A DNA stretch of 20,876 nucleotides, from IMG/VR virus record IMGVR_UViG_3300033146_001910, positions 1 to 20,876 of that record, one strand, 5' to 3'. Made by a program: the position numbers and the translations under genes. This DNA is from a virus. The notes beneath the pieces were generated by a model that saw only the letters and a program-made list of their open reading frames with translations, was not told the origin of the DNA and ran no database searches. Of this stretch, positions 7,895 to 20,876 are shown piece by piece. The first letter of the stretch is position 1. Every line of letters starts with the position of its first letter.

Positions 7895-10328
7895 CATTCA
7901 GGTAGTAATCTTAACCGAAACTCAGTCAATTGGTGGGGAACCTCTTGGGTTTTTAACTCCAACTATTGATGCTGTGATGTCAGGGTATACAACGGAGCCT
8001 ATTAATTGGGCTCCATTTGGGGTCTATCCTAAAAACCTACGCCCAACTACTGAGAATTACGACGATATCCTCAAGGAGTCTCATAAAAGGCTCAGAACCT
8101 ACCTAGATTCGCTCCCAAATCTAAAAGTAATAGTAACACTAGGGTCTGAGGTTACATCACTTGTAACGGGTTCTAAAGCGGCTAAAATTGGACAACCTAG
8201 TAAAGTCCGAGATTATATAGTGATTCCAACCCATAGTTTATTCCAGTTAGGGAATGACCCAAGTTTGTCTCCTGAAGCAGTAGGGCATGTTATATTAGCT
8301 GCCCGTATTATTGTGGGAGTGTTTCATAATATTCCTGTTGTGGATGCAGACTTTGCTTATTTGCAGGAAAACTATGAAGCCATTTTGACAACAGACATTT
8401 TATCCTATGATACTGAAACTAATTCTCTTGATGCTTACTCTGATGATTCTTACATAATTGGAGCTTCCCTTAGTTGGGAAGGGGACAACGCTTGCTTTAT
8501 AGGCTTAACCCATAATGATTTAGCGATTAGTCAGAGTGAATACGAAAATAGAATAAACTTTCTAAAGGCAATTTTAGAAGATTCAAATATTCCAAAAGTT
8601 GCTCAGAATGGGAAGTTTGATAGGCAGATGCTAAAGCAGATACTTGATATTGAAGTTAAGGGTGACTATGCTGATACTATGCTTGACCATTCTTTGTTAG
8701 CAGAGAGTGACTCTCATGCACTAACTACATTAGTTAACCAGTATCTTCCAGAATATGCAGGATACGATTCTCTAATGAACGCCCACATGAAAAAAGACCA
8801 CGATATGACTACCGTTCCTTTTAAAGATATTGTTGGGTATGCTAGTGGGGATGCTTTTGTAACTTACAAACTTCATAAAATCTTTGAAGCACTTTTAGTA
8901 AAGTCAGAACAACTCAAATTAGCCCGTGAGATGGTTTTACCTGCAAATTTAGTTTACACAAAAATGGAAGAGGCAGGGGTAGCCCTTGACATTCCATTGA
9001 TGAACAGTTATATTCCCTTGTACAGTGACCGAATCACTGAGTTAAATGAAAGGTTATATCACTTGGAAGTTGTGCAAGATTGGCATGCTGCTCAATTAAG
9101 CAGTCCTCTTTACTTAAAGCTTCAAAACTATGTTGAAGTAGGGTTAGCAACAGGGACATTTCCAGATGGTAAACGAGTAACGACATTCCGTATGGCTTCG
9201 GCAGAAAAGAAGGTTAGAGTGTTTGAGGAGAAAGCAGTTTTCAATCCTAAGTCCCCTAAACAAGTGATGGAAATGTACTACACTTTTTGTGGTCTTCCTA
9301 CACAAACTAAGTTCTCAAAAAATGCAGATGGGACAAAGAGTGAAAAAGTTAGTGGTGGAAAAGAAGCTCGTATAGCTTTACTTAAACTGACAGACCCTGT
9401 ATATAGCAAAGCCTTAAAGTTAGTTCAGCTAATGAATGAGTATAATAAAGTAACTAAACTTTATACTAGTTTTGTGAAAGACTACAGTAAGCATATTCGA
9501 GACGACGGATTAGTACATACTTCTTTTAATCAAGCCGTGACAAAGACTGGGCGACTTTCTAACTCAAACCCTAACTTGCAACAGGTTCCTAAGTTAACTA
9601 AAGCAGGAGACGACGAACCTGAGTACACTCAGTGGCTTGCAAGGCATAACTTAAAGAAAGCTTATATAAGTAAGTTTGAAAATGGTTTAATAGTTAATGC
9701 GGATTTCTCTCAGTTAGAACTGCGTTTAATGGCAACTCTTTCACAGGATAAGCTAATGTGTGATGCCTATATGTCAGGGGGAGATTTACATGCACAGACA
9801 GGTAGACTTTTACACCCTGACTATGATGATGTTTCAAGTGAACTACGAGCTAAGTATCGTGGTGAAGGAAAGACTAAGAACTTCGCTTCTGTTTATGCAA
9901 TGTCTCCTGACTTTTTGGAAATGTATCCTGAGTTGGGTGCGTGGGTAAACTTAACGAAAGGTTTTATTGTTGCTAATGATTTTTCCTATAACCCTTTTAA
10001 CAGGCATCGACACCTTCAAGATGTTCCATACCTTAATGATAAGATGAAGCAAGGTGTTAACGCAGTCATTCAATCGGCTGGTCATGACTTGTTGATACGA
10101 GCATTAGTTAAGATTTATAAACAGTTTGTAGACTTGGGGTTAAAATCACAGCTAATTTTTGAAGTACACGATTCAATAGTTGTTGATTGTTATGCTCCTG
10201 AAGTAGACACAGTAACTAAGATTTTGAAAGATACAATGGAAGCAACTGATGGGTTAAACTGGATTACAATTCCAATAGTTGTTGATGTAGAAGTTGGTGA
10301 CTCATGGGGTACAGTGGAACCAATCTAA
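7887..10328 (+). CDS. polA: Family A DNA polymerase with 3'-5' exonuclease and N-terminal UDG-like domain
   Basis: An 813-residue protein with a TTG start at 7887, chosen because GGAGG (7876-7880) lies 6 nt upstream. Residues about 1-150 resemble the uracil-DNA glycosylase fold (KVIVTLGSEVTSLVTG, then VIPTHSLFQL), without obvious catalytic residues. The exonuclease has Exo I YDTET (D175, E177), Exo II NGKFD (N241, D245) and Exo III YASGDAF (Y318, D322). The polymerase has TGRLSNSNPNLQQVP, motif A DFSQLELR (D606), motif B R658, K662, F666, Y670, and motif C EVHDS (H761, D762). Between Y670 and the conserved proline P681 there are 11 residues; E. coli Pol I and T7 polymerase have about 30. Both motif B glycines are alanine (A667, A671). 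No 5' nuclease domain is fused; that activity is encoded at 12708. Confidence 0.93.
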   Translation: MDNIQVVILTETQSIGGEPLGFLTPTIDAVMSGYTTEPINWAPFGVYPKNLRPTTENYDDILKESHKRLRTYLDSLPNLKVIVTLGSEVTSLVTGSKAAKIGQPSKVRDYIVIPTHSLFQLGNDPSLSPEAVGHVILAARIIVGVFHNIPVVDADFAYLQENYEAILTTDILSYDTETNSLDAYSDDSYIIGASLSWEGDNACFIGLTHNDLAISQSEYENRINFLKAILEDSNIPKVAQNGKFDRQMLKQILDIEVKGDYADTMLDHSLLAESDSHALTTLVNQYLPEYAGYDSLMNAHMKKDHDMTTVPFKDIVGYASGDAFVTYKLHKIFEALLVKSEQLKLAREMVLPANLVYTKMEEAGVALDIPLMNSYIPLYSDRITELNERLYHLEVVQDWHAAQLSSPLYLKLQNYVEVGLATGTFPDGKRVTTFRMASAEKKVRVFEEKAVFNPKSPKQVMEMYYTFCGLPTQTKFSKNADGTKSEKVSGGKEARIALLKLTDPVYSKALKLVQLMNEYNKVTKLYTSFVKDYSKHIRDDGLVHTSFNQAVTKTGRLSNSNPNLQQVPKLTKAGDDEPEYTQWLARHNLKKAYISKFENGLIVNADFSQLELRLMATLSQDKLMCDAYMSGGDLHAQTGRLLHPDYDDVSSELRAKYRGEGKTKNFASVYAMSPDFLEMYPELGAWVNLTKGFIVANDFSYNPFNRHRHLQDVPYLNDKMKQGVNAVIQSAGHDLLIRALVKIYKQFVDLGLKSQLIFEVHDSIVVDCYAPEVDTVTKILKDTMEATDGLNWITIPIVVDVEVGDSWGTVEPI
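8986..9014 (+). promoter_or_regulatory. Variant promoter motif inside the polymerase gene (copy 5)
   Basis: TTGACA 8986-8991, 14 nt, AGTTATATT 9006-9014. The -35, -10 hexamer and 17-bp spacing are identical to the other copies; only the first base of the TGT extension differs. It is in the same codon phase (LDIPLMNSYI). Confidence 0.5.
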
Positions 10329-18897: not shown

Positions 18898-19089
18898 TTG
18901 AAGATTAGAATTAAGAAGAACGAAAAAGGGTTTTATGCCCAACGCCAGATTTTATGGTGCTTATGGTTTACAATTCACTTTGGGTTGTTCTACCAAGAGT
19001 ATTTTAAGACTAGGAAAGCATTACAAAAAGAGCTAGATAAATACACACCAAACTCAAAGAATATTATTTTACATCAAGGAGATTTTTAA
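18898..19089 (+). CDS. Unknown 63-residue protein
   Basis: A TTG start at 18898 is supported by AAGGAG at 18887-18892, 5 nt upstream. The product has a basic N-terminus (MKIRIKKNEKGF), one aromatic hydrophobic stretch (about 18-31, QILWCLWFTIHFGL) that could be a membrane or amphipathic helix, and a charged C-terminal helix. It ends at TAA overlapping the RNR start codon (TAATG). No family recognised. Confidence 0.55.
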   Translation: MKIRIKKNEKGFYAQRQILWCLWFTIHFGLFYQEYFKTRKALQKELDKYTPNSKNIILHQGDF

Positions 19090-20876
19090 TGAACCAAGAC
19101 TTTTCAAATATACACCAAGTAAAAGTGTTTAAAGACAGATATCAGCATGGGGAAGAGACTGTAGATGAAGCATTTAAACGTGTTGCAAGATGCTCAGTTA
19201 GAATTGAGGAGGAGGTTTTAGGTTTAACACCAGAAGCCCAGTATAAATTATTTTATTCAGGACTAAGTGAGTCTTTATTCTCTCCTGCTGGACGACCTAT
19301 TGCTAGTACTGGAGAAGGGTATAATAATATGCTTTTCAACTGTTTTGTAATAGGGGTAGCTGACTCAAGACAAGGAATCACAGGGAGTTTAGGTGACTTC
19401 ATGGAGATTGCAGCATTGGGTGGGGGCATTGGTAGTAGCTTTGGTAATTTAAGACCTAAAGGTGACAAAACTATAACAAGTAAAGGGACTGCTTCGGGGC
19501 CAGTTTCCTTCATTAATGTTTTTCAAGAACTAGCTACGACAATTAAACAGGCTGGTACTAGAGGGTTAGCAACCTTAGTTACTATGCCTATTTTTCACCC
19601 TGATATAGAAGAGTTTATTGTAGCAAAGTATGAAGAAGGTAAATGGCCTAATGCTAATATATCTATTGGGATTACACATGATTTTATGATAGCTGTGGAA
19701 AATGATTCTGCTTTTGACTTAACTTGGAAAGGTGAAGTCAGAAAAACAGTGAGAGCTAAAGACCTTTGGGAAAAGATTTGCACCCTAGCTCACAGGAATG
19801 GTGAACCAGGAATTTTATTTTTAGACACAATGAATGAAGACTCACCCTATCGTGGTTATGAATACTTGGATAGCACAAATCCTTGCATTACAGGGGATTC
19901 ACCTATACAAACCCCTAGTGGAATAGTATTAGCTAAAGATATTAAACAGGGTGACTTGATAGAGACTATAGCAGGGTATGAAACTGTGACTACTCTTGAG
20001 GTAACTCATGACAGGTACACTTATGAAGTTATACTTAAAAATGGTACTACTATTACAGCAACAGAATCTCATGTGTTTTATACTTTAGATAAAGAAAGAA
20101 ATTTAAAAGAAACTACTTTGGCAGAACTAGGTGCTATAAACGGGGATGGTGCATTTTTAGCAGTATCAAAGAAAAAAGTTGAGGACTTAGTGGAAGTTTC
20201 TGTAATAAAAGCTAGAGAGTCAAAAGCAGAGTGGGCAAGTACTGATTTTGAGTTTGTAGAAGTTGAAGATATTGTGTGGACAGAAAAAGCAGAGACAGTT
20301 TATGACTTTTACTGCGAGGGTAGTGATACTTATGTTGTAAATGGTGTTGTATCAAGAGGATGTGGAGAAGTTGCCTTACCTCATAACGGTGCTTGTAACT
20401 TGGGCTCAGTAATCCTTGGGTCTTTTATTAATAAACAGACTAAGGAAATTGATTTTGACGGGATTGCTCAAGCTGCATTTAGTCTAACTCTTTGGTTGGA
20501 TAACTTGATTGACATTAGCACTTTCCCAACTCCTGCTATAGAGGCAATGGTTAAGAAGTATAGACCTATTGGTGTGGGTTCAATGGGGTTAGCAGATTTG
20601 CTGCTGTATGCTGGACTTCCTTATGGGGACTATCCAGAATCCTTAGCCCTGTCTGATAAAATTGCTAAACTTATTCAAGATAGTTGTCAAGCTGCCAGTG
20701 AGAAACTTGCAGAACAATTTGGCCCATTTCCTGCTTATGACTCAGCTATTTCTGATTTTGCCCCTAGAAGAAACATAACTTTGACAGCGTATGCTCCTAC
20801 AGGAAGTATAAGTGCGTTGTTTGATGTTAGTAGTGGAATTGAATCAATGTTTGCACCAGTTATAAAACGAGACGAG
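19089..20876 (+). CDS. Class II-like ribonucleotide reductase interrupted by an intein (partial, runs off window)
   Basis: ATG 19089, with AAGGAG at 19076-19081; the frame stays open to the last base (596 codons), so the C-terminus is missing. Typical large-subunit features: an N-terminal cysteine motif (LFNCFVIG), ALGGGIGSSFGNLRPKG, GTASGPVSFINVF, HPDIEEFIVAK, then STNP before the intein and CGEVALPHNGACNLGSV after it. N-P-C-G-E holds the radical cysteine of class II enzymes, and ACNLG holds its partner. After splicing the enzyme would reduce ribonucleotides to deoxyribonucleotides; the NPCGE signature points to the adenosylcobalamin-dependent class, so no small subunit would be needed. PTGSIS and GIESMF near the end are also usual. 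The intein (159 residues) must be removed for activity. Confidence 0.88.
   Translation, partial: MNQDFSNIHQVKVFKDRYQHGEETVDEAFKRVARCSVRIEEEVLGLTPEAQYKLFYSGLSESLFSPAGRPIASTGEGYNNMLFNCFVIGVADSRQGITGSLGDFMEIAALGGGIGSSFGNLRPKGDKTITSKGTASGPVSFINVFQELATTIKQAGTRGLATLVTMPIFHPDIEEFIVAKYEEGKWPNANISIGITHDFMIAVENDSAFDLTWKGEVRKTVRAKDLWEKICTLAHRNGEPGILFLDTMNEDSPYRGYEYLDSTNPCITGDSPIQTPSGIVLAKDIKQGDLIETIAGYETVTTLEVTHDRYTYEVILKNGTTITATESHVFYTLDKERNLKETTLAELGAINGDGAFLAVSKKKVEDLVEVSVIKARESKAEWASTDFEFVEVEDIVWTEKAETVYDFYCEGSDTYVVNGVVSRGCGEVALPHNGACNLGSVILGSFINKQTKEIDFDGIAQAAFSLTLWLDNLIDISTFPTPAIEAMVKKYRPIGVGSMGLADLLLYAGLPYGDYPESLALSDKIAKLIQDSCQAASEKLAEQFGPFPAYDSAISDFAPRRNITLTAYAPTGSISALFDVSSGIESMFAPVIKRDE
19884..20360 (+). 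other. Mini-intein in RNR with non-canonical Arg-Gly C-terminus
   Basis: An in-frame insert of 477 nt (159 residues) lies exactly between NP and CGE of the RNR active-site motif. Block A CITGDSPIQTPSG starts with the nucleophile C1; block B has GTTITATESHVF (T and H of the TxxH motif); block F is TVYDFYCEGSDTYVVNG. The last residues are VVSRG, followed by the required C+1. Canonical inteins end in His-Asn. The size and lack of LAGLIDADG or HNH motifs mean there is no homing endonuclease. Splicing normally requires cyclisation of the terminal Asn (or Gln/Asp), so this element may be splicing-impaired or use another mechanism. Confidence 0.85.

Follow-up and report, generated by a model that had tools for sequence, protein, structure and literature searches.

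The stretch of viral DNA analysed here (the window; 20,876 nucleotides, IMG/VR record IMGVR_UViG_3300033146_001910) closes with an open frame at 19089-20876 on the plus strand, a single frame that runs off the contig end and encodes a class II (NrdJ_Z-type) RNR. At its NP|CGE site the frame carries an insert of 159 codons (19884-20360), which begins with Cys and ends in Ser-Arg-Gly, directly before CGE. A sequence-only reading of this DNA had described the insert as an intein that sits at NP|CGE of an RNR and ends in Arg-Gly, not His-Asn, and the codons aga gga at 20355-20360 bear this out. Once excised, the insert passes the Pfam Intein_splicing model (37.9 bits, cut-off 35.8), and the N-terminal intein model gives a weak match (20.4, cut-off 24.5); it holds no homing endonuclease (HEN). 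The frame itself, truncated and intein-carrying, reaches 354.6 bits with NrdJ_Z TIGR02504, for which the cut-off is 399.95. Inteins ending in Gly at this site are called G-type below, and those ending in Asn or Gln N/Q-type. The features of the locus are:

19089..19883, plus strand: N-extein of the class II RNR (NrdJ), ending ...DSTNP; the first redox Cys is frame residue 85 (NCFVI)
19884..20360, plus strand: G-type intein, 159 aa, no homing endonuclease, from Cys1 to Ser-Arg-Gly
19884..19886, plus strand: Cys1 codon tgc, N-terminal nucleophile, invariant (31/31 G-type)
19998..20000, plus strand: Glu39 codon gag, class-specific acidic residue (31/31 G-type, 0/74 N/Q-type at the same site)
20061..20072, plus strand: block B T-x-x-H (Thr60, His63), invariant
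20304..20306, plus strand: block F Asp F:4, residue 141 (VYDF), invariant
20325..20327, plus strand: Asp148 (position -12), at the place of the canonical His F:13 (31/31 G-type, 0/49 N/Q-type of the same spacing)
20355..20360, plus strand: Arg158-Gly159 (aga gga) at the end, where His-Asn is canonical; the Gly is invariant in the class
20361..20363, plus strand: Cys+1 codon tgt, predicted radical cysteine, followed by GE
20361..20876, plus strand: C-extein of the RNR, from Cys+1; ACNLGS holds the second redox Cys; the remainder is on contig L003

The window RNR keeps the first redox Cys, the N of TNP, Cys+1, the E of CGE and the second redox Cys. The last 114 bases of the window (20763-20876) recur without a mismatch at the end of IMGVR_UViG_3300033146_001964 (L003). 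On that contig lie the remainder of the RNR, with its C-terminal Cys pair intact, a terminase-like gene and a portal gene. The class II RNR motifs (catalytic Asn, radical Cys, Glu and redox cysteines) are present across the two contigs, which probably derive from a single phage genome that the assembly broke in two. Peptide patterns run over viral contigs returned no direct relatives of the window intein or of its N-extein, and the sole contig reached was the overlapping L003, via the C-extein. Elsewhere in this phage, the portal protein (L004 1-2610, minus strand; L005; contig IMGVR_UViG_3300033146_001964) holds a second intein with a LAGLIDADG domain, which looks class 3-like, having no N-terminal Cys, a W in block B (GHMW) and a Cys in block F (QCISV), and which ends in VTHN|T. 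At 9880-9960 of the window, a family A DNA polymerase seems to be about 25 residues short directly after KNFASVYAM, with the frame kept; the shortfall falls in the fingers (O-helix) region and may be a real variant or an assembly deletion.

Further inteins of this kind were sought in IMG/VR with a pattern made of a Gly codon before CGE and then CNLG at the RNR spacing. Twelve stretches were obtained, ten of which are RNR inteins ending in RG or QG (two of these loci, L006 and L016, share one identical intein) and two are chance matches. Over the GTDB genomes the same pattern matched 35 times, and 21 of these matches are real loci. Most come from Rokubacteria, Patescibacteria and DPANN archaea; Chloroflexi, Nitrospinota, Chloracidobacterium (Acidobacteria) and a haloarchaeon contribute one each. 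The G-type set comprises 31 distinct full-length inteins, including that of the window and two more from Rokubacteria, and none of its members comes from a cultured organism. The 30 beyond the window's share the NP|CGE site and an [RQM]-G end, Cys+1 and the exact NP|C site are kept in every member, and all four Gly codons are in use for the terminal residue across the class. The sequence-only reading had proposed comparing the terminal codons with those of relatives, and by this comparison the Gly end recurs in more than 30 independent records.

As an independent check, the F-block string D-T-W-I-T-[ED]-G was searched for by itself, whatever the protein and the ending. Besides known members it yielded three new inteins (L192, L199, L206), all at the RNR NP|CGE site, ending in RG or QG and bearing Glu39 and Gly23, and the same holds for the Rokubacteria loci L165 and L173. 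As far as found, class II RNRs are the only hosts of G-type inteins, always at the radical cysteine of NP|CGE. There are natural G-type mini-inteins of 131-132 residues, that of the Rokubacteria locus L110 being 132 aa. One phage RNR (L007 3937-8409) has two inteins: NP|CGE holds a G-type one, and a second, which ends in HN, follows RGMAC further upstream. In a Rokubacteria MAG (L164), an in-frame loss of about 37 residues runs across the F-G block of the G-type mini-intein into the beginning of the C-extein, and reflects either a pseudogene or an assembly error.

Other endings at the RNR site were surveyed in the same manner. Asn precedes CGE in 81 stretches and Gln in 16; no intein turned up with Asp, Glu, Ala, Val, His or Arg (CGN) there, and the GNN and CRN patterns gave inteins ending in G and Q alone. 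Among the codon classes scanned (those for Asn, GNN and CRN), N, Q and G are the only ends and therefore form three discrete states with no smear. The RNR inteins looked at in cultured phages and plasmids (SPBc2, Corynebacterium Zion, Moorella MTATph1, Bacteroides SJC03) end in GN, HN or SQ, none in Gly. Within one Rokubacteria order, the same RNR site holds a G-type mini-intein, an HQ intein or an HN intein, or is empty, and of the three kinds only the G-type is without both His. The Rokubacteria order of L161-L190 is intein-rich, with an intein profile matched in 54 of 60 genomes, often several times, and with inteins at more than one site in some RNR genes. Uninterrupted class II RNR-like frames with NP replaced were also seen (L134, L138, L113, L126), reading NV|CGE in the viral contigs L134 and L138 (GNN matches) and SG|CGE in Dehalococcoidia.

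The last 21 residues of G-type inteins align without gaps as V/T-Y/F-D-L/F-x5-S/T-D-T/E-W/Y-x3-G-x-V/I-S/Q/N-R/Q/M-G, and this F-G block aligns, again without gaps, to N/Q-type inteins of the same spacing. Cys1, TxxH and Asp F:4 are each found in all 31 G-type members, Cys1 and TxxH being invariant in the N/Q-type too. F:13 is Asp in 31/31 G-type and in 0/49 N/Q-type inteins of the same spacing (Fisher p = 7e-23, for related sequences that are not phylogenetically independent), His G:6 is replaced by Arg, Gln or Met, and Asn/Gln G:7 by Gly in 31/31. The proposed roles of the F:13 and G:6 His are to activate the Asn and to stabilise its cyclisation (PMC4031507). By the alignment, the three Asn-cyclisation residues (His F:13, His G:6 and Asn G:7) changed together, and since both His and the Asn are replaced, it is the apparatus of precisely the Asn-cyclisation step that is gone. 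Two further residues mark the class among these related sequences, which are not independent events: Glu39, present in 31/31 G-type inteins and in 0/74 N/Q-type ones of this site, and Gly23, in 31/31 against 2/74. A hand alignment had suggested Glu39 as the counterpart of Hedgehog Asp46, a pairing that was dropped after hhalign, in a weak profile alignment, left the two residues unpaired. Both LAGLIDADG Asp are kept in all 20 of the HEN-bearing G-type members.

The AlphaFold model of the window intein has a HINT fold (pLDDT 82.6), and its best PDB matches are splicing inteins, with a Foldseek probability of 1.00 against gp41-1. The model of the Rokubacteria L110 mini-intein, likewise a HINT fold (pLDDT 92.4), superposes on the Ssp DnaB mini-intein with Z 21.0 and an rmsd of 2.1 A over 135 residues, and on the Hedgehog autoprocessing domain 1at0 with Z 19.4. 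By VIA-align, its stretch from Cys1 to Gly matches solved inteins over their whole length, the Gly falling on gp41-1 125, Mxe GyrA 198 and Mtu RecA 440, which are their last residues; on this model-based alignment the Gly therefore occupies the position of the terminal Asn. A search by sequence found no solved structure of any G-type member.

A tree was built from about 90 N-terminal columns, with the C-terminal columns that hold the trait left out. All 31 G-type inteins lie on one side of a single branch (SH-aLRT 94), as one change; Q and N ends interchange several times on the tree, and G arose once. The deeper forks are unsure because the tree columns are few. The window intein is the most diverged member, its nearest relative showing 40% identity. 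For the Rokubacteria G-type mini-inteins the median pN/pS is 0.25, against 0.21-0.23 in the flanking extein, with synonymous sites near saturation; by these substitution ratios they are under purifying selection. Among 20 cellular MAGs, the interrupted gene holds all class I/II RNR matches in 15, three have other RNR genes and two are ambiguous, although a second RNR could be missed because these genomes are incomplete; class III NrdD occurs in 1 of the 20. All-against-all comparison over the phage, bacterial and archaeal loci brought out no clear recurrent neighbour gene besides RNR, the other shared clusters being seemingly overlapping RNR frames or mostly confined to close relatives.

How do these elements compare with known systems? 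Intein C-termini are given as Asn, Gln, Asp or Glu alone (PMC4031507, PMC7664689). Of the features that define class 1 inteins, G-type members have the position-1 Cys, TxxH, Asp F:4 and Cys+1, and in place of a cyclising C-terminal Asn, Gln, Asp or Glu they have Gly in 31/31; a G-type intein is thus of class 1 type but for one defining feature, which is clearly absent. We found no Gly-ending intein class in the open literature, and an earlier mention in InBase or in subscription papers is possible. Assignment to class 3 (no Cys1, W-C-T motif) was ruled out by the presence of Cys1 and of Asp at F:4, and assignment to the type B BIL domains by a block G that is ungapped apart from the changed residues, by the fixed RNR site and by Cys+1.

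The closest known relatives are the class 1 HN inteins of the same RNR site (solved relative NrdJ-1, PDB 8ubs). They share the HINT fold, Cys1, TxxH, Asp F:4 and Cys+1 with the G-type, many carry a LAGLIDADG endonuclease as G-type members do, and their class II members sit at NP|CGE; the bnrdE intein of phage SPbeta occupies the homologous class Ib site. Against this background the G-type replaces His F:13, His G:6 and Asn G:7 and adds Glu39 and Gly23, both invariant. Inteins with a terminal Gln, as in the RNR of Chilo iridescent virus and the Pol II of Pyrococcus abyssi, likewise end in a residue other than Asn, but Gln is able to cyclise and Gly is not; the Rokubacteria HQ inteins lie in the same gene and site as the G-type but keep both His. 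Replacement of a whole catalytic step has a precedent in the intein lineage without an N-terminal nucleophile, which keeps the terminal Asn, and the G-type is its mirror case, with Cys1 kept and Asn lost. Type B BILs resemble the G-type in having the HINT fold and N-terminal motifs without a normal block G; unlike it, they have no conserved host site or +1 nucleophile and are reported to cleave, not splice. The Hedgehog autoprocessing domain shares the HINT fold and thioester chemistry at Gly-Cys without Asn but, unlike the G-type, has no C-extein and no ligation, and its Gly-Cys bond is on the N-terminal side.

On balance, we consider it reasonably likely that G-type inteins are a functional splicing class that works without cyclisation of the terminal residue, a reading drawn from sequence comparison. 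What suggests splicing is that they are conserved at a residue indispensable to the enzyme, in an RNR gene that is often the only one. The sequence-only reading had offered three options, namely a split or inactive RNR, a different cleavage chemistry and a decaying intein, and the family evidence favours the second; an inactive or split RNR is unlikely given that the rest of the enzyme is intact and that 15 of the 20 cellular genomes apparently have no other class I/II RNR. A related proposal, that these elements cut one or both junctions without ligating and that a two-chain RNR works as a complex, is one we regard as unlikely. Type B BILs without block G do cleave without splicing (PMC4031507), and split phage RNR genes exist in Aeromonas phage Aeh1 (nrdA) and Thermus phage phiYS40 (nrdJ) (PMC3653736). 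However, a break exactly at the radical Cys would turn that residue into a free N-terminus within the active site; BILs occur in variable regions and have no +1 nucleophile, whereas NP|C and Cys+1 are kept throughout the G-type; and the retention of both catalytic Asp in HEN-bearing members is expected of a mobile element that needs clean removal. Decay, in which an ancestral Asn was lost and the RNR is being inactivated or tolerates the insert, has in its favour the inability of Gly to cyclise, the missing homing endonuclease of the window and the deletion across the junction in L164. It is improbable nonetheless, as the R/Q/M-G end is fixed in a monophyletic family of Bacteria, Archaea and phages, with one origin, an invariant alternative residue set, purifying selection, intact HEN motifs and open frames throughout, often in the sole RNR found; moreover, decay predicts varied ends, and the codon classes scanned gave N, Q and G alone.

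Dependence on a factor acting in trans, for example a protease or ligase dedicated to the task, would account for the missing C-terminal catalytic set, and C-terminal cleavage by type B BILs has been termed atypical (PMC7765530). We think this quite improbable, seeing that no neighbour besides RNR clearly recurs across the loci, although a factor could be encoded elsewhere. Nor does the junction seem to be misplaced. The sequence-only reading had allowed for a C-terminal junction elsewhere with a normal Asn, which fails for want of a suitable Asn close to the end; the only pair near the intein end that joins Asn, Gln or Asp to a following Cys, Ser or Thr is the D-T at -12/-11, whose T is E in two members. 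A junction at Asp148|Thr149 (Asp cyclisation, Thr as +1, 11 residues left in the RNR) would use a known intein end and a dipeptide present in 29/31 members. It was rejected as very improbable, given Asp-Glu in L007 and L014, a model-based alignment in which the last residue of solved inteins is matched by Gly and not by Asp148, and a product with an 11-residue insert beside the radical Cys. An error of sequencing or assembly that turned His-Asn into Arg-Gly has a negligible chance: no independent contig covers the window junction, but an error there is not credible when Gly occurs in more than 30 independent records through all four Gly codons, with correlated changes elsewhere in the intein, and the idea is already refuted.

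If G-type inteins do splice, the N-terminal half of the reaction would be standard, with Cys1, the block B Thr and His and Asp F:4 giving a thioester with the N-extein. The C-terminal half would be altered: with F:13, G:6 and G:7 replaced and Glu39 invariant, the Gly-Cys+1 bond would have to break without side-chain cyclisation. In Hedgehog, a Gly-Cys bond is converted to a thioester by an N-to-S acyl shift, and Gly suits thioester exchange. By analogy, an N-to-S acyl shift at Gly-Cys+1 could free the Cys+1 amine, which would attack the N-extein thioester, and the intein's Gly thioester would then be resolved by water, a cellular thiol or its own freed Cys1. Given splicing, this is tentatively the most likely route, favoured by the Hedgehog Gly-Cys thioester, by the aptness of Gly for thioester exchange and by the proposal, made for type A BILs, of a free amine attacking the N-terminal thioester (PMC4031507). 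Direct hydrolysis of Gly-Cys, with Glu39/Asp148 activating the water, comes close to it in likelihood, again given splicing, and accounts better for these class-specific acids. More speculatively, the G-type might be a fourth mechanistic class of intein, with thioesters at both Cys1 and Cys+1, the Cys+1 amine joining the exteins, and the Gly thioester closing on Cys1 into a backbone-circular intein (or being hydrolysed).

The window insert is a member of a family, unrecognised until now and conserved widely, whose members all end in Gly and probably leave the host protein by chemistry so far undescribed. An old clade spanning domains without a cyclising end would mean either a new way of cleaving the C-terminal junction within the HINT fold, or an essential enzyme that tolerates an insert which cleaves without ligating at its radical cysteine. 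Should the intein leave with an unmodified or thioester-activated C-terminal Gly, it would be useful for protein ligation and cyclisation.
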